Of a stretch of 64,000 bases of DNA, positions 14,137-24,961 are shown piece by piece (position 1 is the stretch's first letter; each line of letters begins with the position of its first letter). The translations under genes and the position numbers were made by a program. The stretch covers positions 1,960,501 to 2,024,500 of the forward strand of contig NZ_CP069811.1 of assembly GCF_016894385.1 (NCBI RefSeq). The letters run 5' to 3'. Origin of the DNA: Cupriavidus oxalaticus. GTDB lineage: Bacteria; Pseudomonadota; Gammaproteobacteria; Burkholderiales; Burkholderiaceae. Under the pieces are notes generated by a model. It ran no database searches and was not told where the DNA came from. It saw only the letters and a list, made by a program, of their open reading frames with translations.

Positions 14137-15174
14137 CTATGGCGCGTCGTCGCGCGGCGCGGCGGTGGAGCCGCGCACGATCAGCTGCGGCGTCAGCTGC
14201 ACGGTGACGGCATCGGATCCCGGCTTGTCGATCTGCCGCAGCAGCAGCCGCGCCGCCTCCTCGCCCATTTCATGGACGGCGATGCGCACCGTGGTCAGCG
14301 GCGGGGTCAGCGCATCGGCGAACGGCATGTCGTTGTGCCCGACCACCGAGATGTCGGCGGGGCAATCCAGTCCGCGTTCGCGCAGCAGGTCGTAGCAGCC
14401 CATCGCCACCAGGTCGTTGCCGGCGGCGATGGCGGTGACTGCCGGAAAGGCTTCCAGCAGTTGCGCGCACGCCAGCTTGCCGGCCTCGCGCGAATAGCTG
14501 GCGGCCTCGATCACGTGCCAGGCGTCGCGGCGCAGGCGGTGCCGCCTGACCGCCTGGACAAAGCCTTCGCGCCGCAGGAAGCCGGTGGACAGCGCGGCCG
14601 GGCCGGCGATATGGGCGATATGGCGATGGCCGAGGCCGACCAGGTGGTCTACCGTCAGCCGCATCGCCAGCAGGTTGTCGCTGACCACGCACGAGACCCG
14701 TCCCGTCTCTTCGCCGCGGTTGACCGTGACGACCGGGATATGCTGCCGGATGCAGTAGTCGAGCACCGCGTCCTCGCGCTCCGCCGTCGCCAGCACCAGC
14801 CCTTCGACCTGCCGGCCGATCATCTGGTCGATGATGAAGCGCTGCCGGCTCTTGTCGGTGCCGGCGTTGACGACGATGGGTACGTAGCCCTTTTGCGCCA
14901 GCACCGACTCGATCCCCGCCAGGATCGGCGGGAACACCGGGTTGGCGATATCGGGCAGCACCACGCCCACCAGCCCGGAGCGCTGCGTGCGCAAGCCCGC
15001 GGCGATGCGGTTGGGGCGGAAGCCGCGCGCCTCAGCCACTTCCAGGATGCGCGCCGCCACGTCCTGCGCCACCAGGTGCCGCGTGGCCGGGTTCATGACC
15101 CGCGAGACCGTCGAGTAATGCACGTCGATCTCGGCGGCCAGGTCTTTCAGGGTGAGGCGCTTGCGCTCGGGCAT
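14137..15174 (-). CDS. LacI-family regulator, likely master of the ring-cleavage block
   Basis: A 345-residue LacI/GalR repressor. The headpiece has TLKDLAAEIDVHYSTVSRVM (residues 7-26) and the hinge helix PNRIAAGLR with the Leu that pries open a central CpG in cognate operators. The sugar-binding-like core (60-335) has SGLVGVVLPDIANPVFPPI and DISVVGHNDMPFADALTPPLTTV. Two identical copies of TGCAAACGTTTGCA, a textbook operator for this family, lie upstream of the dioxygenase and of the porin in the same gene block, so this is the obvious candidate to bind them. The inducer is unknown; members acting on aromatic pathways are less common than sugar sensors. Confidence 0.9.
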   Translation of the reverse strand: MPERKRLTLKDLAAEIDVHYSTVSRVMNPATRHLVAQDVAARILEVAEARGFRPNRIAAGLRTQRSGLVGVVLPDIANPVFPPILAGIESVLAQKGYVPIVVNAGTDKSRQRFIIDQMIGRQVEGLVLATAEREDAVLDYCIRQHIPVVTVNRGEETGRVSCVVSDNLLAMRLTVDHLVGLGHRHIAHIAGPAALSTGFLRREGFVQAVRRHRLRRDAWHVIEAASYSREAGKLACAQLLEAFPAVTAIAAGNDLVAMGCYDLLRERGLDCPADISVVGHNDMPFADALTPPLTTVRIAVHEMGEEAARLLLRQIDKPGSDAVTVQLTPQLIVRGSTAAPRDDAP

Positions 15175-15339
15175 GACGGCAGGTGGCTGGGCGGCGGCCC
15201 GGGAATGGGGGAGGCGATATTTTAAGGTGCATTGCTGCTGGGGGTGGTTAATGAAGGTGGGGGCTTCACTTTGGCGTCATCTTGACGGGGCTGCGGCTGG
15301 GCATCTGGCGGATATTTGATATGCCCTGGTTTCGCCCTG

Positions 15340-15566
15340 AGGGCCGGAGCCTCCACGAAGTGCAGCGCTTCACTCCGTGGTCACGCCGGCCCTCACCCCA
15401 ACCCTCTCCCGCAAGCGGGAGAGGGAGCAAACCATCAGCAAGCTTGGCCATCAAGGGGCCGGGCACAGAACGCCCCGCTGCGCTCGCTTGGCGCCATCGC
15501 CGATGAGCCCACAGACCTATCCCTGCCCATTGCTTGCTCCCCTCTCCCGCAAGCGGGAGAGGGAGC
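15340..15566. repeat. Dispersed repeat unit with CTCTCCCGC/GCGGGAGAG palindromes
   Basis: One copy, in inverted orientation, of the unit that is arrayed in tandem at 32563-33248. It starts with GGGCCGGAGCCTCCACGAAG, carries a strong hairpin CCCTCTCCCGCAAGCGGGAGAGGG near 15401-15425 and ends with a second one at 15541-15563. It fills the gap between lacI and the Bug gene. It has no believable gene; overlapping open frames are by-products of the repeat. The hairpins could stop transcription. Confidence 0.8.
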
Positions 15567-15599
15567 ACACAACTGCAAGTCTGTGCCACCGCGCAACCC

Positions 15600-16592
15600 T
15601 TACTCCCCAGCCCTGACCCCTGACTGCCGCACCACCGGCGCCAGCTTGCCGATTTCCGCCTGGATATACGCGGCAAACTCCTGCGGCGACGAACGCCGCG
15701 GCTCGGCGCCCTGCGCGGCCAGGCGCTCGCGCACGTCGGGCGATGACAGCGCCTTGCCGATCTCGGCGTTGAGGGCATCGACGATCTCGCGCGGCGTGCC
15801 GGCCGGCGCGAGGACGCCGAACCACGAATCGAAGGCATAGGCGGGAAAGCCCGATTCCGCGACGGTCGGGATATCCGGCAGCGCACTGGCCCGCTTCGGC
15901 GTGGTCACCGCCAGCGCGCGCAGCTTGCCTTGCCTGACGAACGGCATGGCCGAGACGGTGGGCGCGAACATCATGTCGCCGCGGCCGGCCATGACGTCGG
16001 TCAGCGCTTCGCCGGTGCCCTTGTACGGGATATGCGTGATGTCGATGCCGGCCTGCATCTTGAACATCTCGCCGCTGAGGTGCGTGGAGCTGCCGGAGCC
16101 CGCGGAGTCAAAGTTCAGCGCGCCCGGCGTGGCCTTGGCCGCCGCCACCACGTCGCGCACCGACTTGTACTTGCTGGCCGCATTGACCACCAGCACGTTG
16201 GGCACGCTCGCCACCAGCGAGACCGGCGCGAAGTCCTTCACCGTGTCATAGCCGAGTTTGGGATACAGCGTGGCGTTGATCGCATGCCCGACCGACACCA
16301 GGATCAGCGTGTAGCCGTCCGGCGCCGCCTTGGCCACGCCGGTGGCGCCGACGGTGCCGCCCGCGCCGGGCCGGTTGTCGACGATCACCTGGTAGCTGCC
16401 GCCCTCGGCCATCTTGCTGCCGAGGATGCGCGCAAGGATATCGGTGGCGCTGCCGGCGGAAAACGGCACCACCAGCCGGATCGGCTTGCTGGGGTACTGG
16501 GGCTGCATACTGGCGGCGGAGGCGGCGGGGGCGGCCGCCAGCATCAACGATGAAGTCAGCGCCAGCACGGCGCCCTGGATGGATCGAATCAT
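15600..16592 (-). CDS. Bug-family solute receptor of the ring-cleavage block
   Basis: A 330-residue receptor. The start at 16592 is chosen because GAGGAGACAAGGA lies directly upstream; an in-frame ATG at 16607 lacks such a site. The signal peptide ends ASAAS. Signatures: YPSKPIRLVVPFSAGSATD, APDGYTLILVS and DITHIPYKGTGEALTDVMAG. It lies downstream of the porin, on the same strand with a 41-bp gap, which pairs outer-membrane entry with periplasmic capture of presumably the same aromatic or acidic substrate. Confidence 0.9.
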   Translation of the reverse strand: MIRSIQGAVLALTSSLMLAAAPAASAASMQPQYPSKPIRLVVPFSAGSATDILARILGSKMAEGGSYQVIVDNRPGAGGTVGATGVAKAAPDGYTLILVSVGHAINATLYPKLGYDTVKDFAPVSLVASVPNVLVVNAASKYKSVRDVVAAAKATPGALNFDSAGSGSSTHLSGEMFKMQAGIDITHIPYKGTGEALTDVMAGRGDMMFAPTVSAMPFVRQGKLRALAVTTPKRASALPDIPTVAESGFPAYAFDSWFGVLAPAGTPREIVDALNAEIGKALSSPDVRERLAAQGAEPRRSSPQEFAAYIQAEIGKLAPVVRQSGVRAGE

Positions 16593-16633
16593 TCCTTGTC
16601 TCCTCATTACCGGTGGGACGCGTGGGCCGCGCC

Positions 16634-17737
16634 TCAGAAGAAATGCCGCATGCCGAGCGCGACGGTCTGCGGGTCGGCGCCCGCGCTTACGCCCAGCTCG
16701 TTGATGGCGAAGTCATAGATCGCGTTGCGCTTGTTGTTGATGCGGCTGTAGTACGCATACAGCGCCGTGCGCTTGGACAACGGGTAGTCGTAGCCCACCG
16801 TGACCTGCGTCGCGCCCGTCTCCGCGCCGCTGCGGAAGAAGCCGACGGTCTCGGTGGCGTTGCCGGCGCCGTTGCTGGCGAGGCCAAAGCCGACCCGCAC
16901 GCTGCCGGGCCCCAGCTTCTGCACCACCGACGCGTAGTAGCCGTTGCGCGTCAGGTCGCCCGTGGCGGTGCGGTAATGCAGCCGTTCATAGAGCAGCGCG
17001 ACGGTGGTAGTCGGGAACTTGTAGGAAACGCCCGCCTTCATCGCATCGTCGTTGCGGTTCGCGGTCTGGTAGTGCTGGTGGATTTCATAGGCCAGCACCA
17101 CGTTGAGCGGACCGTTGTCGTAGGCGGCGGAGAACGAGTACAGCCCCGGGTTGCGCGGCACCGTGGTCTTTTCCTCGTTGATGCCCCACGCGGCCGCGCC
17201 GCTGAAGCCCGCCAGCGACGGCGTCTTGTAGACGATGATGTTTTTCTGCCGGCGGTCGAACGCGCTGGTGTCCTGCACGTTGTCCGAACTCGACGTGGAG
17301 CCGTTGCCGATCAGCGCCATATAGCCCGCCGTGGTCGGGTAATACGGATCGTAGGTCGAGGTCGCCTCGGTATAGGGCGTCTGCCAGTGCCCCATGAACA
17401 GCGTGCCGGCGCTGCCCTGCAGCCCGATGCGCGAGTTGCGCCCGGCGATCTGGCCCTGGCCGGTGTCGAGCGAGACGTTGCTCTCGATCTGCCAGATCGC
17501 CTTGAGGCTGCCGCCCAGCCCTTCCTCGCCGCGCATGCCAAACACGGAGCGGTTGTTGGTCAGGCGGCCGACGCCGCCAAGGCGCGCGCCGTCGGTCGCG
17601 GTATTGGCATAGGAATACTCCAGCGCGGTGTTCAGGCGCCCGTACAGCGTCACGGACGACTGCGCGCCGGCGTGGCCGCTGCAGGCCGCGCCCATGGCCA
17701 GCAGCAGCAAGCGGTACCGCTTCGGAACGGATGTCAT
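16634..17737 (-). CDS. Gram-negative general porin (Burkholderiales type)
   Basis: A 367-residue protein; the start at 17737 is preceded by AGGGGTAGACCA. The signal peptide is cut after AGA, giving mature QSSVTLYGRLNTALEYS, the standard start of trimeric 16-strand porins in this order. The loop and strand motifs FGMRGEEGLGGSLKAIWQIES and NRNSRIGLQG-like segments are present, and the chain ends GMRHFF with the terminal Phe needed for outer-membrane assembly. It is the first gene after an operator for the LacI-type regulator (17809-17822), 72 bp upstream, so it is likely induced with the catabolic genes. It probably admits the substrate of the pathway. Confidence 0.92.
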   Translation of the reverse strand: MTSVPKRYRLLLLAMGAACSGHAGAQSSVTLYGRLNTALEYSYANTATDGARLGGVGRLTNNRSVFGMRGEEGLGGSLKAIWQIESNVSLDTGQGQIAGRNSRIGLQGSAGTLFMGHWQTPYTEATSTYDPYYPTTAGYMALIGNGSTSSSDNVQDTSAFDRRQKNIIVYKTPSLAGFSGAAAWGINEEKTTVPRNPGLYSFSAAYDNGPLNVVLAYEIHQHYQTANRNDDAMKAGVSYKFPTTTVALLYERLHYRTATGDLTRNGYYASVVQKLGPGSVRVGFGLASNGAGNATETVGFFRSGAETGATQVTVGYDYPLSKRTALYAYYSRINNKRNAIYDFAINELGVSAGADPQTVALGMRHFF

Positions 17738-17808: not shown

Positions 17809-17822
17809 TGCAAACGTTTGCA
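17809..17822. promoter_or_regulatory. LacI-family operator upstream of the porin
   Basis: TGCAAACGTTTGCA is a perfect 14-bp palindrome with a central CpG, typical for LacI/GalR regulators. The same 14 bases recur at 21870-21883 upstream of the dioxygenase. It sits between the cupin stop and the porin start and gives the porin/Bug segment its own control point. Confidence 0.8.
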
Positions 17823-17837: not shown

Positions 17838-18179
17838 TCAGACCTTCGGATATGGCATCGCCAGCAGCAGCAAGGCGGGCCGGTTGCCGGGATTGGACAC
17901 CTGCCGCGCTTCGCCCGGCGCGAGGCGCACCGAGTCGTACTGTCCCAGCGTGACGGCCTCGTCCGGCGTGCGCACGCAGACTTCCCCTTCGAGCACGACG
18001 TAATGCTTTTCCACCGGCGAAGCATCCAGCGCGGTATGGCCGCCGGGCAGCAGCACCGAGACCCCGAGCCACAGTGCCTCCGACGGTCCGGCCTCGTGCC
18101 CCTGCAGCCGCAGGCAATGCATGCCGTCGTGATTGGGCGGGAAATACGCCGGCGCCTGGGCAAACCGGGTCGTGTTCAT
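17838..18179 (-). CDS. Small single-domain cupin protein
   Basis: A 113-residue cupin. The beta-barrel motifs are LLPGGHTALDASPVEKHYVVLEGEV (motif 1; only part of the usual metal ligand set is evident, one His in GGHTA and one in EKHY) and NPGNRPALLLLAMPYP (end of motif 2). Its start overlaps the stop of the upstream reductase by ATGA, so the two are translationally coupled. Small cupins in aromatic operons can be isomerases or decarboxylases of ring-cleavage products or simple binding proteins; the reaction is not known. It is the last gene before the porin operator. Confidence 0.8.
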   Translation of the reverse strand: MNTTRFAQAPAYFPPNHDGMHCLRLQGHEAGPSEALWLGVSVLLPGGHTALDASPVEKHYVVLEGEVCVRTPDEAVTLGQYDSVRLAPGEARQVSNPGNRPALLLLAMPYPKV

Positions 18180-19153
18180 GGCTTGAGCACCACGCGCTCG
18201 GTGGCGCCTTGCAGGACCGCGCGGTACGCGTCCTTGGCATTGGCCAGTGCATAGGTGTAATCGGACAGCACCGGGAACGGCCGCAGTTCACCCGAGGCAA
18301 ACATCGGCGCAAGCTGGTCCAGGATCTGCGCGCAGGCGCCGCTGTCCAGCGCCAGCGTGTCGACGCCGACGTAGGTATGCTGGCCGCGGTAGAAGGCGAA
18401 GATGTCGAACGGCACCGGCTTCTCGATGGTCGAGATAAAAATCTGCGTCGCGCCGGTTGCCATCGCCCGGTTGGCCTGCTCGAAATATGGGCTGCCGACG
18501 GTGTTGTAGACGATATCGGCACCATGGCCGCCGGTCTCGTCGCGCACCACCTCGGCGATCGCTTCGCGGCTGGCGTCGATCATGCGCACTTCGCCGCTGG
18601 CATGGCCGCGATAAGGCACGGCCGTGCGCTCGACGGCAAAGACGCGCGCACCCAGTGCCGTGGCAATCTGGATGGTGGCCTGCCCGACCTTGCCGTTGCC
18701 GCCGCAGACCAGCACGGTGCTGCCGGCCTGCGGCATGCCGGCGCGGCGCAGGCCTTCAAAGGCGGTGATGAACGGCACGCCCACGGCGCCGGCCTCAAGC
18801 AGCGACACCGAGGCCGGCTTGGCGCGCACCGCGCTGGCCTGGATGCTCAGGTATTTGCCATGCGTGCCGTCGCGGCGGATACCCAGCTCGCCGCCGCTGC
18901 CCCACACCTGCAGGCCCAGCAGCGCGGCGGGCCCGTCGACCACCAGGCCGGCATAGTCGCGGCCCGGGGTGCGCGGCCACACCGCATGCGGCATCAGGCC
19001 CAGCGTCGCCTTCACGTCGCTGGGATTGACCCCGGCACTGGCGACTTCGATGATGCATTGGTCCGCCGCGGCATCGGGGCGCGGCACGCCGAGCAGTTCG
19101 AGCTGCAGCGCTTCGATATCGGCGGCTTTCTGGTTCACACGGATGGTGTTCAT
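18176..19153 (-). CDS. Zinc-independent MDR oxidoreductase (quinone/enoyl reductase type)
   Basis: A 325-residue medium-chain dehydrogenase/reductase; the start at 19153 follows AAAGGACAAACCTT. It has the GroES-like N-domain (AGVNPSDVK near 45) and a nucleotide fold with VLVCGGNGKVGQATIQIA near 150. The catalytic Cys and structural Cys4 zinc ligands of alcohol dehydrogenases are absent, which places it with NADPH:quinone oxidoreductases and enoyl reductases that reduce C=C bonds next to a carbonyl. In this operon it could reduce an unsaturated ring-cleavage product such as maleylacetate; that is inference. It lies between BKACE and the cupin, with which it overlaps by four bases. Confidence 0.85.
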   Translation of the reverse strand: MNTIRVNQKAADIEALQLELLGVPRPDAAADQCIIEVASAGVNPSDVKATLGLMPHAVWPRTPGRDYAGLVVDGPAALLGLQVWGSGGELGIRRDGTHGKYLSIQASAVRAKPASVSLLEAGAVGVPFITAFEGLRRAGMPQAGSTVLVCGGNGKVGQATIQIATALGARVFAVERTAVPYRGHASGEVRMIDASREAIAEVVRDETGGHGADIVYNTVGSPYFEQANRAMATGATQIFISTIEKPVPFDIFAFYRGQHTYVGVDTLALDSGACAQILDQLAPMFASGELRPFPVLSDYTYALANAKDAYRAVLQGATERVVLKP

Positions 19154-19195
19154 AAGGTTTGTCCTTTCAGTGTTCGGCAATACGGTTGGCGGGAT

Positions 19196-20080
19196 TCAGG
19201 CTTCGCGCAGCCCCAGCGTACGGCGCGCCTCCACCGGCGACGCGATCTCGCCGCCGAGCGAGCGCACGATGTCGCGCGCCTTGGCGACCAGCGCGGCGTT
19301 GCTCGGGGCCAGCACGCCCTTCTCCAGGTAGATGTTGTCTTCCAGGCCCACGCGCACGTGGCCGCCGGCCAGCCATGCCTGCGCCACGATCGGGAACTCG
19401 GCGCGGCCGATGCCGAAGGCAGACCAGTGCGCGCCGGGGGGCAGCATGTTGCGCGCGTAGAAGATCGTCTCGGGCGTGGGCGCGAAGCCGTACTTGACGC
19501 CCAGCACGAAGGTCCACAGGCCGGGCCCGTCGAGCACGCCGTCGCGGATGAAATCGAGCGCCATGTTGAGGTCGCCCGAATCGAAGATCTCCAGCTCCGG
19601 CATGACGCCGGCGGCGCGGATCGCGGCGGCCATCTTGCGCACGTTGGCGGGTGTGTTGATGACCACGTCGCCGCCGGAGTTCATGGTGTTGAGATCGAGC
19701 GAGCACACATCCGGACGCAGCGCGGTGATGTGCTCGACGCGCTTGCCCGGCGGCAGCAGCGTGGTGCCCGGCGCCGCCACGCGCGGCTCGTCCTCGCTCG
19801 GCACGAAGCGGCCGCCGGGACCGGTGGTGAGGTTGATGATCAGCGTGCGGTGGCGCGTGCGGATGCGGTCGATGACATCGGCGTAGTACTCGAGCGCCAT
19901 CGACGGGCGGCCCGTTTCGGGATCGCGCACGTGGATATGAGCCGCGGCGGCGCCGGCCTCGGCGGCTTCGAGCGCGGCGTCGGCGATCTGCGCCGGCGTG
20001 ACCGGCAGGCCGGGATGCTGCTCGGGGGTGACGATATTGCCGGTCACCGCGCAGGTGATGATGGTCTTGCGTGCGTGCAT
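19196..20080 (-). CDS. Beta-keto acid cleavage enzyme (BKACE, DUF849 family)
   Basis: A 294-residue BKACE protein from ATG 20080. The N-terminus KTIITCAVTGNI and the metal-binding HIHVRDPETGRPS (His near 46 and 48) are diagnostic; INLTTGPGG, PDVCSLDLNTMN and LEDNIYLEKGVLA complete the family pattern. These zinc enzymes take a beta-keto acid plus acetyl-CoA and yield acetoacetate plus a new CoA thioester; the founder cleaves 3-keto-5-aminohexanoate. Specificity varies by member. Here it sits downstream of an intradiol dioxygenase and an SDR, so a ring-derived beta-keto acid such as 3-oxoadipate is a reasonable guess. The ribosome site is weak. Confidence 0.9.
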   Translation of the reverse strand: MHARKTIITCAVTGNIVTPEQHPGLPVTPAQIADAALEAAEAGAAAAHIHVRDPETGRPSMALEYYADVIDRIRTRHRTLIINLTTGPGGRFVPSEDEPRVAAPGTTLLPPGKRVEHITALRPDVCSLDLNTMNSGGDVVINTPANVRKMAAAIRAAGVMPELEIFDSGDLNMALDFIRDGVLDGPGLWTFVLGVKYGFAPTPETIFYARNMLPPGAHWSAFGIGRAEFPIVAQAWLAGGHVRVGLEDNIYLEKGVLAPSNAALVAKARDIVRSLGGEIASPVEARRTLGLREA

Positions 20081-20129
20081 GAGCGAACGTTGGTGAAGAA
20101 CAAGGGGGAAAAAGGAGCGCGGCGCCGGC

Positions 20130-20879
20130 CTAGCCGAGCTGCCGGCCGCCGTCGACGACGATGGTGGTGCCGGTGGCAAAGCGCAGCGAGGTTGCGCACG
20201 CGGCGATGGCATCGGCCACGTCCTGCGCCTGGCCGATGCGTTGCAGCGGCGTCGTCCTCGCGGCGCGCTCGTTGAAGCCGCTGTCGCGGCCGGGCACGAA
20301 GGCGCTGTCGACCACGCCGGGCGAGACGTTCAGCACGCGGATCTGCGGCGCCAGTGCGCGCCCGAGCGACATCGCCATGACGTCGAGCCCCGCCTTGGCC
20401 GCGCAGTACGCCACGTTGCTGCCCTGCCCGTTGCGCCCCGCGATGGAGCCGACATTGACCACCAGTCCGTCGCCGCTGGCGCGCAGGTGCGGCGCAAAGG
20501 CGCGGATCGCGGCGAACTGGCCGCGCCAGTTGATGGCGAAGAGCTCGTCGATCAGCGCGTCGTCGAGCGCGTCGAGGTCGGCGTGCGGGATCGCCCGCGT
20601 AAAGCCGGCGGTATTGACCAGCATGTCGACGCGGCCGTAATGGCTGATGACTTCGTCGGCCAGCGCGCGCAGCGAGGCGCTGTCGGCGATTTCCGCGACG
20701 GCGGCAAGGTGGTTGCCGGCCGGCAGCGCGGCCGCCGCGCTGGCCGCCTTGTCGGCGTCGCGGCCGGCCAGGACGATGCTCGCGCCGAGGCAGGCCAGCG
20801 TTTCACCGGTGGCAAGGCCGATGCTGCCGGAGCCGCCGAGGATGACGGCAACCTTGCCGGAAAGAGGAGATGCGCTCAT
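20130..20879 (-). CDS. Short-chain dehydrogenase/reductase (SDR)
   Basis: A 249-residue classical SDR. The cofactor loop GGSGSIG is at residues 15-21 (the usual first Thr replaced by Gly), NTAG near 90 substitutes for NNAG, and the catalytic Ser (VGSIAG) and YCAAK (Tyr-x3-Lys) near 155-160 are intact; NVSPGVVDSAF and the terminal TTIVVDGGRQLG are typical. It should oxidise or reduce an alcohol/ketone with NAD(P). It lies second in the operon, 41 bp after the dioxygenase, followed by BKACE after 49 bp, so it likely forms or consumes the keto group used by BKACE. Confidence 0.88.
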   Translation of the reverse strand: MSASPLSGKVAVILGGSGSIGLATGETLACLGASIVLAGRDADKAASAAAALPAGNHLAAVAEIADSASLRALADEVISHYGRVDMLVNTAGFTRAIPHADLDALDDALIDELFAINWRGQFAAIRAFAPHLRASGDGLVVNVGSIAGRNGQGSNVAYCAAKAGLDVMAMSLGRALAPQIRVLNVSPGVVDSAFVPGRDSGFNERAARTTPLQRIGQAQDVADAIAACATSLRFATGTTIVVDGGRQLG

Positions 20880-20920
20880 GTTCGGAGTGGGAATCTGCGT
20901 GAAAGGAAATCGGCCAGCGT

Positions 20921-21856
20921 TCAGTCGATCGGCGGCTTGGGAAACGTCTGCTGCCCGGGCTCCAGCGTGAAGTCGAAGTCCAGCGTGTAGAACGGCGCTG
21001 GCACCTCGCCCCACGGGCTGCGGCCCTGGTCGTGCAGCTGCAGCGTGCCGACCAGTTGCCGGTGCACGCCGAAGGTGACATCCGAGGCCAGCTTGTCGGC
21101 CTCGTCGGCAAACACCTGCGTCACCAGCGTCCGGTATCCCGGCGCCGCGACGATGAAATGGATATGCGCCGGCCGGTACGGATGGCGCTGTTGCGCGGCC
21201 AGCAGCGCGCCCACCGGGCCGTCGGTCGGCACTGGATAGCCGGCCGGGCGCACCGTGCGGAAGCGGTAGCCGCCATCGGCATCGGTATGGAAGCAGCCGC
21301 GCAGGTTGCGGTCGGGCTGGGTCGGGTCCTGGTTGTCGTACAGGCCGACCGGCGAGGCCTGCCACACCTCGACCAGCGCGCCGGCCAGCGGCGTGCCGTC
21401 GGTGCCGCGCACGGTGCCGCTGACCAGCAGCGGCAGGCCGGGCGCATCGTCCTGCACCACGCAGTCGCCGCAGGCATAGCGCGGCGCGTTGGCGCGGTAG
21501 AACGGTCCCAGCAGGGCGCCGGGCGTGCGGCCGTCGCGGGTGCTGTTGTTCATCACGGTCACCAGCGTCGACAGGCCCAGCACGTCCGCCGCCAGCACGA
21601 CCTCGTTGTGCGTGGCGTGCGTCGCGTGGCCGAGGCTGGCGAGCCAGCCCATCGCAAACTCGAATTCTTCGTCGGTCAGGCGCACCTCGCGCACGAAGCC
21701 GTGCAGGTGCCGGACCAGCGCATCCATGACCTGGCGCAGGCGCGGATCGGCGGTATCCGCCATCGCGGCCTGGACGATGCCGGTCACCGAATGCTCGTCG
21801 TCTATCAGCGTGGGGCGCGGGGCCGGCGATACCTGCCGCGCGATCGATGTCTCCAT
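20921..21856 (-). CDS. Intradiol ring-cleavage dioxygenase (catechol/hydroxyquinol 1,2-dioxygenase family)
   Basis: A 311-residue non-haem Fe(III) dioxygenase. ATG 21856 follows AAAGGAGGCATGAC; an in-frame ATG at 21874 would lie inside the operator and is rejected. An N-terminal helical linker domain (about 25-100) is followed by the catalytic beta-sandwich with GPFYRANAP. The four iron ligands are visible: Tyr in VGLYDNQ, Tyr in PAGYPVPTDGP and the His pair in RPAHIHF. The family inserts O2 between the two hydroxyl-bearing carbons of catechols. The N-terminal domain and length resemble hydroxyquinol or chlorocatechol enzymes more than protocatechuate subunits. First gene of the operon, directly behind a LacI-type operator. 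Confidence 0.92.
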   Translation of the reverse strand: METSIARQVSPAPRPTLIDDEHSVTGIVQAAMADTADPRLRQVMDALVRHLHGFVREVRLTDEEFEFAMGWLASLGHATHATHNEVVLAADVLGLSTLVTVMNNSTRDGRTPGALLGPFYRANAPRYACGDCVVQDDAPGLPLLVSGTVRGTDGTPLAGALVEVWQASPVGLYDNQDPTQPDRNLRGCFHTDADGGYRFRTVRPAGYPVPTDGPVGALLAAQQRHPYRPAHIHFIVAAPGYRTLVTQVFADEADKLASDVTFGVHRQLVGTLQLHDQGRSPWGEVPAPFYTLDFDFTLEPGQQTFPKPPID

Positions 21857-21869
21857 GTCATGCCTCCTT

Positions 21870-21883
21870 TGCAAACGTTTGCA
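21870..21883. promoter_or_regulatory. LacI-family operator upstream of the dioxygenase
   Basis: A second exact copy of TGCAAACGTTTGCA, immediately upstream of the AAAGGAGG ribosome site of the dioxygenase gene. The close position implies a transcription start at or inside the operator, so a bound repressor would block initiation. Confidence 0.8.
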
Positions 21884-22324: not shown

Positions 22325-23629
22325 ATGTTCTCCGCCGCCCAGCGTCCGCAGCCGACGCACTCCGTTCCCTGCTCCCCCCGCAGCGTGGCCACGCCGCCGC
22401 TGCCGCAGTGGATCGCAGCCCGCATGTCAGAGCACTTCGACGCCCGGCTGGGCAAGCTCTGGGGCGGCGACCACCTGCTGCACGGGCGCAAGCCGGGTCC
22501 CGACGCGCTGCACCTGAGCAGCAACGACTACCTGTGCCTGCTGGGCGAGCGGGCGTTGCTGGAGGCGCAGGCCCGCGCGCTGCTGGACGAGCAGCCCGAG
22601 CTGCTGATGTCGTCCGTGTTCCAGTACGGCGAGACGCCGCAACGGCACGTCGAGCGCAAGCTGGCCAACCTGATGCAGGCCGAGGACGGGCTGATCGCGC
22701 AGTCCGGCTGGGCCGCCAACGTCGGCCTGGTGCAATGCATCGCCGGGCCGGGCGTGCCGGTCTATATCGACATGAACGGCCACGCCTCGCTGTGGGAGGG
22801 CATCACCGCCGCCGGCGCGCAGGCCGTGCCGATCCGCCACAACGACGTGGCCCATGCGCGCCGCCAGGCCGAACGCTTCGGGCCGGGCGTGATCATGGTC
22901 GACGCGGTCTACTCGACGACTGGCAGCGTGGCGCCGCTGGAGGAATATGTCGCGGTGGCGGAAGCGTCGGGTTCGGTGCTGGTCGTGGATGAGTCGCACT
23001 CGCTCGGCACCCACGGGCCGTCGGGCGGTGGGCTGGTGCCGGCGCTGGGGCTGTCGGAGCGGGTGCATTTCCGCACCGCTTCGCTGGCCAAGGCCTTCGC
23101 CGGGCGCGCAGGCTTCGTCACCTGCTCCAGCAGGTTCAAGGACTTCTTCGCGGTCGAGTCGCGGCCGGCCATTTTCAGTTCGGGCCTGCTGCGCCACGAA
23201 ATCGCGTGGTTCGACGCCGCCATCGATTTCATCGCCGCGGCGGACCAGCGGCGCGAACAGCTGCATGCGATCACCCGCACAACCCGCGCAGCGATCAGTG
23301 CGCTGGGATACAACATCAGCGACGGCTCCGAGCAGATCATCGGGCTGGAGGCCGGCACCGAGCCGCAGGTGATGGTCCTGCGCAACGCGCTGCAGCAACG
23401 CGGCATCTTCGGCGCGGTATTCTGCTCGCCGGCAACCCCCAGGAATCGGGCATTGATGCGACTTACCCTGCATGCGAAACTTAGCGCCGGTGAAATCGAC
23501 CGGCTGGTCAGCGTTCTCGCCAGTATCCGCGACGAGGTGCGTCTGGAAGAATGGTCATCGACGCGCCGCAGCCGGCGCAAATCCCTCAATCCCAAAGAGG
23601 AGCTCGCCGCAAGCTCCCGCGAGGAGTAG
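22325..23629 (+). CDS. cqsA: Alpha-hydroxyketone autoinducer synthase (CqsA/LqsA-like)
   Basis: A 434-residue PLP enzyme of the alpha-oxoamine synthase family; GAGGAAAACCG precedes ATG 22325. Motifs: LSSNDYLCL near 65, VVDESHSLGTHGPSGGG near 220 (Asp for the PLP nitrogen) and TASLAKAFAGRAGF near 255 with the PLP Lys. CqsA/LqsA enzymes join a fatty acyl-CoA to an amino acid or S-adenosylmethionine-derived donor to make CAI-1/LAI-1-type 3-hydroxy-ketone signals. The neighbour 3 bp downstream is a membrane histidine kinase resembling CqsS/LqsS, which strongly supports a signalling role over biotin or haem synthesis (KBL/ALAS/BioF relatives). It has a basic C-terminal extension of about 30 residues. 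Confidence 0.85.
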   Translation: MFSAAQRPQPTHSVPCSPRSVATPPLPQWIAARMSEHFDARLGKLWGGDHLLHGRKPGPDALHLSSNDYLCLLGERALLEAQARALLDEQPELLMSSVFQYGETPQRHVERKLANLMQAEDGLIAQSGWAANVGLVQCIAGPGVPVYIDMNGHASLWEGITAAGAQAVPIRHNDVAHARRQAERFGPGVIMVDAVYSTTGSVAPLEEYVAVAEASGSVLVVDESHSLGTHGPSGGGLVPALGLSERVHFRTASLAKAFAGRAGFVTCSSRFKDFFAVESRPAIFSSGLLRHEIAWFDAAIDFIAAADQRREQLHAITRTTRAAISALGYNISDGSEQIIGLEAGTEPQVMVLRNALQQRGIFGAVFCSPATPRNRALMRLTLHAKLSAGEIDRLVSVLASIRDEVRLEEWSSTRRSRRKSLNPKEELAASSREE

Positions 23630-23632
23630 CCG

Positions 23633-24961
23633 TTGGAGATGGAAGCAGAGTTGGCCGACTCAGGCGGCCGCAAGCGCCGTTCCGGCCTGCCGGGACTTGC
23701 CGGCCTTGCCCGCCGGAGCTGGCAGTCGGTGTTCGAAACCGCGGCGCGGGCCATCCTGCTCGACGAGGAAAGCGTCATCCGCCTGCGGCGGATCCAGATG
23801 GTAGGCGCGCTGGGGGTGATCGGGCACCCGCTCTACTACCTGATCTGGTCCTATGTGTTCCCGCAGCCCTACGAGAACCTGTGGCTGCGGCTGGCCTGCA
23901 CCGCGCTGTTCGTGCCGCTGCTGTTTGCCAGGGCCTTCTCGCACCGGCGCTGGCTGCCGCCCTATGCATTGTTTGCGATCACGGTAGGCATGCCGTTCGC
24001 CTTCATCTTCCTGTACCTGGAGAACGGCGGGTCGATGGCCTGGGCCGAGTCGGTCATCATCGCCGTGGTGATCCTCTACCACTTCAATACGGCGTTCGCG
24101 ACCATCTCGCTGCTGTCCGGCGCGGCCGCCGCGGTGGCGCTGTTCGTGCTGGCCGGCAACTCCATGGGCGGGATCCCGTGGGAGCCGGTACTGCTGCAGT
24201 TGCCGATCATCGGCTTCGTGATTTCGGTGCTGGTGGTGATCAAGCTCGACCGGCAGCTGCTGATCGAGCAGAAGCGGCGCGGCATGGCGGCGGCGCTGGC
24301 CACCGTCGCGCACGAGCTGCGTACGCCGCTGACCAGCCTGAGCATCAGCGCGGGGGGCCTCAAGGCGCGGCTGCCGGCAGCGCTGGACCAGGACGCGCCG
24401 CGCCGCGAGGGGCTGATGCAGGCGGTGGCGCGCATGGAATCCGACATCGCGCATATCAGCAACAGCATCGAACTGCTGGTGGCCAACTCCAAGAACCCGG
24501 AAAAGGCCACGCGCGAGCTGTTCGAGCTGGGCGGCGTGATCCGCGACACCATCGCCCGGTTTCCGTTCGATGAGCCGGGCGGCGACATCGTCACGATCGA
24601 TCTGCCCGGCCCGGTGCGCGTGCTCGGCAACGCGCAGCTGTTCGGGCTGGTCATGACCAACCTGCTGAAGAACGCGCTCGAAGCGATCAAGCGCGCCGGC
24701 AAGGGCGATATCCAGATCCGCTGCGAGGTGCGGCCGGACGCGGTGCACGTCACCTTCCGCGACACCGCGACCGGGGTGCCGCCGCAGGTGCTGGCGCGCA
24801 TGTTCCAGCCCTTCTTTTCCTATCCGGCGCACCGCGGCACCGGCATCGGGCTGGCGTTCTGCCAGAACGTGCTGACCAGCTGGGGCGCCGGCATCAGTTG
24901 CCGTTCCGTCGAGCACGAATTCACGGAGTTCAACATCCGCTTCCCGCACAAGGACCACTGA
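23633..24961 (+). CDS. CqsS/LqsS-like sensor histidine kinase
   Basis: A 442-residue kinase. Translation starts at TTG 23633 (GAGGAG six bases upstream, overlapping the end of the synthase) or ATG 23639; the former has the better spacing. About six membrane helices occupy residues 55-210, then a short linker, the phospho-acceptor VAHELRTPLTSLS (His near 227), the N-box LLKNALEAI and the G-box GTGIGLAFCQNVL. The multi-helix sensor without a periplasmic loop matches receptors for alpha-hydroxyketone signals. Unlike Vibrio CqsS there is no C-terminal receiver domain, and no response regulator lies next to it, so the phosphate must go to a partner elsewhere. Translationally coupled to the synthase. 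Confidence 0.88.
   Translation: MEMEAELADSGGRKRRSGLPGLAGLARRSWQSVFETAARAILLDEESVIRLRRIQMVGALGVIGHPLYYLIWSYVFPQPYENLWLRLACTALFVPLLFARAFSHRRWLPPYALFAITVGMPFAFIFLYLENGGSMAWAESVIIAVVILYHFNTAFATISLLSGAAAAVALFVLAGNSMGGIPWEPVLLQLPIIGFVISVLVVIKLDRQLLIEQKRRGMAAALATVAHELRTPLTSLSISAGGLKARLPAALDQDAPRREGLMQAVARMESDIAHISNSIELLVANSKNPEKATRELFELGGVIRDTIARFPFDEPGGDIVTIDLPGPVRVLGNAQLFGLVMTNLLKNALEAIKRAGKGDIQIRCEVRPDAVHVTFRDTATGVPPQVLARMFQPFFSYPAHRGTGIGLAFCQNVLTSWGAGISCRSVEHEFTEFNIRFPHKDH

Follow-up and report, generated by a model that had tools for sequence, protein, structure and literature searches.

A conserved operon combining a hydroxyquinol 1,2-dioxygenase-type enzyme with a BKACE family protein, and its putative role in completing intradiol ring cleavage

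Gene content and layout of the locus

The window analyzed here, a 64,000-nucleotide stretch of the Cupriavidus oxalaticus genome, carries a minus-strand block (window positions 21856 to 17838) of five genes predicted to encode, in that order, a ring-cleavage dioxygenase (DOX), three further enzymes (SDR, BKACE, and a zinc-less MDR), and a small cupin. Downstream of the cupin, the same conserved unit continues with a porin gene, a gene for a TctC/Bug receptor, and a LacI regulator gene. The features and their profile matches were as follows.

21870 to 21883, no strand: predicted LacI-type operator, TGCAAACGTTTGCA, an exact palindrome, 13 nt ahead of the start codon of DOX
20921 to 21856, minus strand: DOX, hydroxyquinol 1,2-dioxygenase type, 311 aa (Pfam PF04444 and PF00775)
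20130 to 20882, minus strand: SDR reductase/dehydrogenase, 250 aa (PF00106, 138.5 bits)
19196 to 20080, minus strand: BKACE (DUF849), Phe166/Arg91 subclass, 294 aa (PF05853, 334.6 bits)
18176 to 19153, minus strand: MDR without zinc ligands, enone/enoyl-reductase-like, 325 aa (PF00107/PF13602)
17838 to 18179, minus strand: small cupin, 113 aa (PF07883, 29.5 bits; cut-off, 27.2)
17809 to 17822, no strand: second operator copy, TGCAAACGTTTGCA, an exact palindrome before the porin gene
16634 to 17737, minus strand: porin (PF13609, 181 bits)
15600 to 16607, minus strand: TctC/Bug solute receptor (PF03401, 266 bits)
14137 to 15174, minus strand: LacI-family gene, probable operon regulator (PF00356 and Peripla_BP_3)

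The cupin start and the MDR stop overlap by 4 nt (ATGA), and the remaining gaps from DOX through SDR and BKACE to MDR are 38, 49, and 42 nt. These profile matches bore out the coordinates and five-gene content given for the block in a preliminary description, whose interval stopped short of the porin, Bug receptor, and LacI genes. That description had also reported the usual partners missing, and among the operon genes a profile scan found no cycloisomerase, Fe-ADH, CoA-transferase, or thiolase; no member of the canonical beta-ketoadipate set (cycloisomerase, enol-lactonase, CoA-transferase, and thiolase) was present among them. Three pcaJ/scoB-family and seven Fe-ADH matches above cut-off were found in the rest of the genome.

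The 64 kb hold just two exact copies of the 14-bp palindrome, one ahead of DOX and the other ahead of the porin gene (with ≤2 mismatches, the expected mean was 0.16 copies, and ≥2 copies arose in 1 of 100 shuffles). The DOX-upstream operator was exact in all 37 genus loci, and of 53 usable named loci outside Cupriavidus, 47 had it with ≤2 mismatches; the LacI-family protein is predicted to bind there. Transporters differed among loci (Bug, RbsABC, TRAP, Liv, and MFS types) and thus indicate no single substrate.

Conservation of the operon across genomes

DOX, SDR, MDR, and cupin genes were all found beside the BKACE gene in 37/37 genus neighborhoods (loci picked by DOX), 74/80 named loci and 20/34 mostly family-level stretches (both picked by BKACE), and 3/11 phylum/order stretches, with some genomes shared among these sets. 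Gene order was unchanged in all 37 fetched genus neighborhoods, each of which also contained the TctC/Bug receptor and LacI genes, with the porin present in 32; the LacI gene was found in 68 of the 80 named loci. Six of six alphaproteobacterial plasmid loci examined carried DOX, SDR, BKACE, MDR, cupin, and LacI complete. Co-occurrence of the five families outside this strain, which the preliminary description had set beforehand as the test on which its proposal could fall, therefore held in the genus, named, and plasmid loci. The five genes are one conserved operon, and conservation in these three sets rules out a chance or strain-specific neighborhood.

DOX (≥71%) was detected in 38 of 60 genus genomes, all of them within the 39 that have the BKACE. 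Counting the source genome in each set, the BKACE was found at E ≤ 1e-105 in 66/398 family genomes and at E ≤ 1e-95 in 11/398 phylum genomes and 2/399 order genomes. The operon is spread over many Burkholderiales genera as well as Azospirillaceae, Rhizobiaceae, and Boseaceae, and this wide conservation suggests that it probably acts on a common natural compound. Its hosts include many soil and root bacteria, with a nearly constant gene order.

DOX was missing from 8/11 phylum/order and 10/34 family stretches. Within a genus of approximately 2-Mb genomes, presumably Polynucleobacter, five of six genomes retained this BKACE without DOX (E ≤ 1e-20), an observation that speaks against a cleavage pathway; one 2-Mb genome, also presumably Polynucleobacter, carries the operon. 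A Trinickia copy (L125/L189) has the arrangement SDR-BKACE-gammaCA, with no DOX within the stretch. Both occurrences would suit a role in which DOX acts on a side branch and the SDR, BKACE, MDR, and cupin break down a hydroxy acid of open-chain or alicyclic type, as would the LacI gene and the RbsABC transporters of many Paraburkholderia loci, which point to a sugar-like inducer, and the SDR and BKACE put forward for deoxyribonate use by Pseudomonas simiae (PMC6365646). However, DOX is the first gene after the operator and was present in 78/80 named loci, one of the two exceptions (L213) being truncated by a contig end, and such a nonaromatic role is judged improbable.

Some relatives carry accessory genes for a molybdenum hydroxylase, RidA, a TRZ/ATZ-type amidohydrolase, an enolase-superfamily protein, or an alpha/beta hydrolase with 2,6-dihydroxypseudooxynicotine hydrolase as its top match in the PDB. 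No accessory gene was common to every cluster inspected. Nicotine/pyridine, cyclitol, and aminated-ring substrates were considered and are unsupported, the hints being accessory genes of some relatives only.

The ring-cleavage dioxygenase

DOX contains Dioxygenase_N and Dioxygenase_C domains (153 bits; cut-off, 27) and, as previously described, all four iron ligands (Y173, Y207, H231, and H233), which were kept in 116/116 distinct sequences of ≥48% identity (window copy counted); these domains and ligands are those expected of a hydroxyquinol 1,2-dioxygenase. The nearest solved structures were 1TMX (217 bits; 43% identical over 267 positions) and PnpC (204 bits), with catechol dioxygenases at ≤146 bits, and identity to three aligned hydroxyquinol dioxygenases was 39 to 43%.

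The pocket positions described for 1TMX (Asp83, Phe108, Phe111, Ile199, and Val251) were compared across these enzymes. At the Asp83 and Phe111 equivalents, DOX has the same residues as 3/3 aligned hydroxyquinol dioxygenases, and the CatA of this genome has Pro and Leu. The Phe108 equivalent is Leu116 in 116/116 DOX sequences and Phe in 1TMX, 3N9T, and 8R2X; because Leu also occupies this position in 8R2W, a named hydroxyquinol 1,2-dioxygenase, and in 8R2V, Leu116 does not exclude hydroxyquinol. The Ile199 equivalent is Val209 in 116/116, with Ile in the aligned hydroxyquinol enzymes, and the Val251 equivalent varies (Thr in 63, Val in 51, and Ala in 2). By sequence, DOX is closest to the hydroxyquinol 1,2-dioxygenases, and its activity on hydroxyquinol is putative.

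The SDR, MDR, and cupin

Residues N90, S146, Y159, and K163 of the SDR were present in 119/119 aligned rows, and Arg41, at the cofactor position, was present in 92/119 and is presumably NADP(H)-like. The MDR is quinone-reductase/PKS-enoyl-reductase-like, with PKS enoyl-reductase structures among its matches, and scored 105.8 bits on the PIG3 quinone oxidoreductase model, under the 296.8 cut-off. Inspection by eye agreed with the earlier report of a zinc-less MDR, finding no Cys or His at the presumed positions of the catalytic zinc; the protein looks like an enone/enoyl reductase. In the cupin, E57, K58, Y60, D82, S83, E90, R92, and N96 were invariant in 115/115 distinct rows, no metal histidines were conserved, and a PDB search gave no useful relative (best E value, 0.0044).

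Active-site residues of the BKACE

BKACEs cleave beta-keto acids with the help of acetyl-CoA, the products being acetoacetate and a CoA thioester. The predicted protein belongs to this family by its PF05853 score (cut-off, 24.8 bits), and the HIHVRD motif noted earlier contributes the metal ligands H48 and H50, the third ligand being E247. These ligands, F166, and R91 were kept in 139/139 BKACE rows of ≥45% identity (131 distinct, window copy counted), a set with no carnitine-dehydrogenase neighbors inside it. Of the 41 operon-linked BKACEs in a tree built from 81 chosen rows, 38 fell together on the 44-row side of a 99/96 branch. On the NCBIfam 3-oxoadipate:acetyl-CoA acetyltransferase model (NF053568), the BKACE scored 178.8 bits, under the cut-off of 350, and 7/7 other BKACEs scored from the same genome, which has 10, also fell short of the cut-off; the low score of the operon's BKACE is a point against a cleavage pathway.

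The canonical catalytic tyrosine of BKACEs is Tyr145 in CcaKce and Tyr173 in PdKce (PMC12871164), and the window BKACE has F166 instead. This position is Phe in 3C6C and Gly and Thr in two paralogues from the same genome (L006 and L008), and the catalytic tyrosine may not define BKACEs. All 20 BKACEs adjoining L-carnitine dehydrogenase genes (identity of the dehydrogenase confirmed for 3 of the 20) carry Phe166 together with Asp91, and carnitine catabolism in P. aeruginosa includes a BKACE leading to betainyl-CoA (PMC12482172). Phe166 therefore seems compatible with cleavage, and the proposition that Phe166 alone excludes it was rejected on these 20 proteins.

The closest PDB sequence was BsfD (9ZSC, 364 bits), with F166 and R91 at identical numbering. 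Against a cleavage pathway, this nearest solved relative acetylates with decarboxylation and without cleavage, a divergent chemistry to which Phe166 may contribute in the view of the BsfD authors (PMC12871164); family group G6 likewise has decarboxylation without cleavage activity (PMC4922564, Table 7). The operon BKACE might similarly acetylate a beta-keto acid, with decarboxylation following to give a 1,3-diketone. Phe166 of the carnitine-linked BKACEs and the betainyl-CoA route argue otherwise, as does the catabolic appearance of the operon, where a diketone would not be an expected product, and BsfD-like chemistry is held to be unlikely. The combination of Phe166 and Arg91 is common to the whole subclass, and no phosphonate biosynthesis genes were found among the ten neighboring proteins scanned.

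The occurrence of Arg91 in 139/139 rows versus Asp91 in the 20 carnitine-linked proteins, which have a cationic substrate, suggests that residue 91 may read substrate charge in Phe166 BKACEs. Arg91 would suit an oxoadipate or another anionic keto acid, and in BsfD, Arg91 is near the phosphonate (PMC12871164). Residue 91 is no proof of a ring-cleavage substrate, because Arg91 is also found in BKACEs adjoining class III transaminases (read by eye; L145 and L241) and 3C6C has Phe.

Proposed pathway

A LacI-controlled catabolic operon, in which hydroxyquinol-type cleavage and reduction are followed by a BKACE step replacing CoA-transferase and thiolase, is favored with moderate confidence. The porin and solute receptor would admit a small aromatic compound with several hydroxyls, or its precursor, and DOX would cut the ring between two adjacent hydroxyls beside a further hydroxyl, with maleylacetate or a substituted analogue as the unsaturated keto-dicarboxylate product. 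The zinc-less MDR would saturate the enone, the SDR, most likely as an NADPH reductase, would alter another oxygen function along the opened chain, and the cupin would probably transfer protons (tautomerization or isomerization). With Arg91 holding the resulting beta-keto dicarboxylate, the BKACE would use acetyl-CoA to cleave this compound to acetoacetate plus succinyl- or malyl-CoA as the C4-dicarboxyl-CoA, in place of the CoA-transferase and thiolase reactions.

Nested inside this pathway, so that the likelihoods given to the two are not mutually exclusive, is a narrow version in which hydroxyquinol is converted to maleylacetate and 3-oxoadipate, the BKACE yields acetoacetate and succinyl-CoA, and the SDR is accessory. 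The nearest relatives of DOX, the enone-reductase-like MDR, and the existence of the NF053568 enzyme family are consistent with it. Weighing against it are the NF053568 score of the BKACE, the fixed Val209 of DOX (a mild change), and the SDR and cupin, which are equally conserved yet have no role in the scheme. C. metallidurans CH34, for which the gene is known at the species level, did not grow on hydroxyquinol (PMC8879955), a result tempered by the autoxidation of this compound, and the narrow version is rather doubtful. An aromatic richer in oxygen than hydroxyquinol (e.g., a tetrahydroxybenzene or precursor) could instead give a dioxoadipate, reduced by the SDR to a hydroxy-oxoadipate that the Arg91 BKACE would cleave with acetyl-CoA to acetoacetate and malyl-CoA; this more specific proposal is unlikely as it stands, and if true, a phenol would reach the TCA cycle by a widespread, aerobic route that needs neither thiolase nor CoA-transferase and passes through no lactone.

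The pathway of the preliminary description, ring cleavage and reduction followed by BKACE cleavage, is plausible in outline: the conserved unit, the DOX and MDR types, and Arg91 agree with it, and the NF053568 score, the nongrowth of CH34, the roleless SDR and cupin, and the DOX-less 2-Mb genomes do not. If the route works as proposed, it would be another way of finishing intradiol ring cleavage. A preference for anionic beta-keto acids with Arg91 and for cationic ones with Asp91, both alongside Phe166, would provide a testable rule for part of the large BKACE family, and the carnitine-linked Phe166 bears on the published suggestion of a part for Phe166 in BsfD chemistry (PMC12871164).

Comparison with known systems

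No earlier description of the operon was found among the matches listed from the open-licence PMC literature; the preliminary description likewise knew of no pathway with this gene set. BKACE action after intradiol cleavage, on beta-ketoadipate, has nonetheless been proposed for cat/pca clusters (PMC6449761 and PMC8963497), making the present scheme a variant of an existing proposal, and beta-ketoadipate activity of the family has been credited to Bastard 2014 (PMC4922564, Table 7). The R. eutropha H16 CatM/BenM regulon (PMC6449761) and the Methylobacterium pca clusters (PMC8963497) share with the operon a COG3246/DUF849 gene and intradiol cleavage, with the BKACE proposed instead of the later thiolytic steps. 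Those clusters act on catechol or protocatechuate, whereas the operon has a hydroxyquinol-type DOX, SDR, MDR, cupin, and LacI gene, lacks a lactone-forming gene, and has a BKACE scoring under the 3-oxoadipate model.

DOX has the domains and iron ligands of the hydroxyquinol 1,2-dioxygenases (1TMX, PnpC/3N9T, 8R2X, and 8R2W) and resembles them over much of the pocket, the Asp83 and Phe111 equivalents included, with differences at Leu116 (shared with 8R2W) and Val209; unlike the systems of those enzymes, the operon has no iron-type maleylacetate reductase. The flavophos enzyme BsfD has F166, R91, H48, H50, and E247 in common with the BKACE but belongs to a phosphonate biosynthetic cluster with a diketone-type product, in contrast to the catabolic context in the window (PMC12871164). 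The anaerobic phloroglucinol pathway of Clostridium scatologenes also combines an SDR with a BKACE relative, triacetate acetoacetate-lyase, that yields acetoacetate, but there the ring is opened reductively by a cyclohydrolase, with no oxygen and no dioxygenase (PMC10470551). In deoxyribonate oxidation, an SDR-made beta-keto acid is likewise proposed to be cleaved by a BKACE to acetoacetate and an acyl-CoA, starting, unlike in the operon, from a sugar acid without ring cleavage (PMC6365646).

Gene organization and conservation of the operon

The genes of interest lie on the minus strand of a 6.69-Mb, two-contig genome of the genus Cupriavidus:

21856-20921, minus, hydroxyquinol-type intradiol dioxygenase (DOX)
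20882-20130, minus, reductase/dehydrogenase-type enzyme (SDR)
20080-19196, minus, beta-keto acid cleavage-type enzyme (BKACE)
19153-18176, minus, reductase-type enzyme (MDR)
18179-17838, minus, small cupin
17737-16634, minus, porin
16607-15600, minus, TctC/Bug receptor
15174-14137, minus, LacI

The first five genes are almost contiguous, with the MDR stop overlapped by the cupin start. Between the Bug and LacI genes, positions 15338-15570 hold a 29-nt inverted repeat and a pair of GC-rich palindromic repeats, each 31 nt long and spaced 138 nt apart. Adjoining DOX and divergent from it (22325-24961, plus strand) are an alpha-hydroxyketone autoinducer synthase, presumably of the CqsA/LqsA type (NF005526 score of 580 against a cut-off of 428), and then a histidine kinase, likely a quorum-sensing pair.

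DOX was present at at least 71% identity in 38 of 60 genus genomes. BKACE (E ≤ 1e-105) was found in all of these and in a 39th, G058, where the cluster was rearranged and DOX was 52 to 53% identical. The order DOX-SDR-BKACE-MDR-cupin-(porin)-Bug-LacI was retained in all 37 neighborhoods compared (the window's own left out), with the porin not found in 5 of the 37.

The preliminary description had left in question whether the five genes occur together beyond the C. oxalaticus strain; they do. DOX, SDR, MDR, and cupin were all found in the BKACE stretch in 37/37 genus loci (chosen by DOX), 74/80 named-genome loci (the top 80 among 348 confirmed relatives), 20/34 loci mostly of the same family (chosen by BKACE), and 3/11 phylum/order loci; these sets share genomes, and stretches end at contig ends (e.g., locus L213). 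In the named set, 25 loci had ≥87% identity (23 from named Cupriavidus), and the other 55 came mostly from Variovorax and Paraburkholderia. All five genes and LacI were present in 6/6 plasmid loci examined: five from the 43 BKACE-bearing records (Skermanella, Rhizobium sp. T136, R. bangladeshense, Bosea, and R. leguminosarum) and one from Shinella, found via DOX. Gene order was retained in four. The other two were R. bangladeshense, where two inserted genes separated SDR from BKACE, and Skermanella, whose cupin was on the opposite side, adjoining LacI. Transporter types varied among lineages carrying the operon. Many relatives had a gamma-carbonic-anhydrase/PaaY-like gene, scoring below both models' cut-offs, in the BKACE-MDR interval or 3' of the cupin.

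Putative operator

The window contained exactly two exact copies of TGCAAACGTTTGCA, one 13 nt upstream of the DOX start codon and one upstream of the porin. From 350 bases upstream of DOX to 90 bases inside it, the sequence was exact upstream of DOX in 37/37 genus loci and was found with at most two mismatches in 47/53 usable named non-Cupriavidus loci (55 in total), 21/27 usable family/alphaproteobacterial loci (28 in total), and 3/6 plasmid loci; such matches occurred in 0 to 0.4% of resampled sequences. Because of the palindrome type, the linked LacI gene, and this co-conservation, the operon's LacI is predicted to bind TGCAAACGTTTGCA.

Dioxygenase and its relatives

The best structure match of DOX was the hydroxyquinol 1,2-dioxygenase 1TMX (217 bits; 43% identity across 267 positions), with catechol dioxygenases at ≤146 bits. 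Equivalents of Asp83, Phe111, and Arg218, which we take to be pocket positions of hydroxyquinol dioxygenase, were retained; the own-genome CatA shares the Arg and has Pro and Leu at the first two. Leu116 and Val209 were invariant in 116/116 distinct DOX sequences and correspond to Phe and Ile in 1TMX, 3N9T, and 8R2X. Since Leu also occupies the position equivalent to 116 in 8R2V and in the named hydroxyquinol 1,2-dioxygenase 8R2W, the predicted pocket neither identifies hydroxyquinol as the substrate nor rules it out. Hydroxyquinol autoxidizes. A species-level C. metallidurans record (P0031) encoded an 82% identical DOX, and a table in PMC8879955 reports no growth of strain CH34 on hydroxyquinol.

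The own genome encodes a second hydroxyquinol-type dioxygenase (G000:C1:2093359-2094195, L013), 47 to 49% identical to DOX. Relatives at 48 to 49% in Sagittula (L249) and M. nodulans (L250) adjoin annotated 2-oxo-hept-4-ene-1,7-dioate hydratase and aldolase genes, with Gfo/Idh/MocA and type II dehydroquinase genes also in Sagittula, possibly another intradiol route. In a rearranged Cupriavidus cluster (L148, L149, and L150), RidA and an NMT1-type receptor adjoin a 52 to 53% identical DOX; L148 and L149 each have two LacI genes, and no cupin was found in L150. C. basilensis OR16 (L167 and L174) and C. yeoncheonensis (L168 and L157) each have this cluster, which perhaps serves a second substrate, alongside the usual operon.

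SDR, MDR, and cupin

SDR had a complete catalytic tetrad, with an NADP(H)-type residue in 92/119 rows, and MDR was of the quinone-reductase/enoyl-reductase type. Across 115 distinct aligned cupin sequences, no conserved metal histidines were found, yet Glu57, Lys58, Tyr60, Asp82, Ser83, Glu90, Arg92, and Asn96 were invariant (115/115), making proton transfer likelier than an oxygenase role.

BKACE residues and phylogeny

The nearest solved relative of the window BKACE was BsfD (9ZSC), of the flavophos pathway, described in PMC12871164 as acetylating and decarboxylating without cleavage; its authors note that Phe166 replaces the catalytic Tyr and that Arg91 lies near the phosphonate. Both residues, with identical numbering, are in the window BKACE and in all 139 BKACE rows at ≥45% identity (131 distinct; the window's own copy counted, some genomes twice). 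The six rows below 45% (five distinct proteins) had Tyr166 and no Arg91. Residue 166 varies: in the own-genome alignment it was Tyr in L001/L005 (one hit), L002, L004, and L007, Gly in L006, and Thr in L008.

BKACEs beside carnitine dehydrogenase (L259 to L278, the best 20 loci of 49 matching genomes) had Phe166 and Asp91 in 20/20 loci, with the motif GGD versus GGR in the window type. The neighboring dehydrogenases were found with a longer bifunctional model, all below its cut-off; the L-carnitine dehydrogenase model confirmed 3/20 (649 to 667 bits versus 414). Their Phe166 conflicts with PMC12871164, which states that Tyr occupies this position in all BKACE sequences. Because P. aeruginosa carnitine breakdown is described as proceeding via BKACE to betainyl-CoA (PMC12482172), Phe166 seems compatible with cleavage. 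Residue 91 seems to be Asp for a cationic substrate and Arg for a phosphonate, and Arg would presumably also suit a carboxylate; 3C6C has Phe. Arg91 thus favors a keto-dicarboxylate such as oxoadipate without proving it, since it is also carried by BKACEs adjoining genes that, judged by eye, resemble class III transaminases.

In a tree of 81 chosen BKACE rows, 38/41 operon-linked sequences fell on one side (44 rows) of a 99/96 branch; two alphaproteobacterial ones lay near that branch, and L236 lay elsewhere, which suggests replacement. The window BKACE scored below the NCBIfam 3-oxoadipate cut-off. Two of the 10 own-genome BKACEs (L001, C1:1405576; L002, C1:1522636) passed the 3,5-dioxohexanoate:acetyl-CoA acetone transferase model. 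Operon-type BKACE can serve a keto acid from another source, because 5/6 genomes carrying it in one ~2-Mb genus (g12, presumably Polynucleobacter) had no DOX genome-wide at E ≤ 1e-20. Decarboxylation without cleavage activity is described for BKACE group G6 (PMC4922564).

Proposed pathway and comparison with known systems

We infer all reactions of the operon. Most likely, the substrate would be taken up, DOX would open its ring, MDR would reduce a C=C bond, and SDR would alter a second oxygen function; the cupin would then transfer a proton, and a retro-Claisen transfer catalyzed by BKACE would yield acetoacetate and a C4-dicarboxyl-CoA. Given two NAD(P)H-type enzymes and a BKACE needing a free beta-ketone, the ring-cleavage product may have an additional oxygen; on this bolder and less likely reading, the C4-dicarboxyl-CoA would be malyl-CoA. 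Counting against the pathway are the g12 genomes that carry BKACE without DOX, the reported lack of CH34 growth on hydroxyquinol, the sub-cut-off 3-oxoadipate score of the window BKACE, the G6 precedent for decarboxylation without cleavage, and the lineage-dependent transporters.

The novelty suggested in the preliminary description appears to hold for the gene set, of which no description was found in open-licence literature, but not for BKACE after intradiol cleavage: such a role in cat and pca clusters appears as a proposal in PMC6449761 and PMC8963497, and Table 7 of PMC4922564 credits beta-ketoadipate activity within the family to Bastard 2014. The operon is a variation on an already proposed intradiol-BKACE theme, with a gene set that is apparently new.
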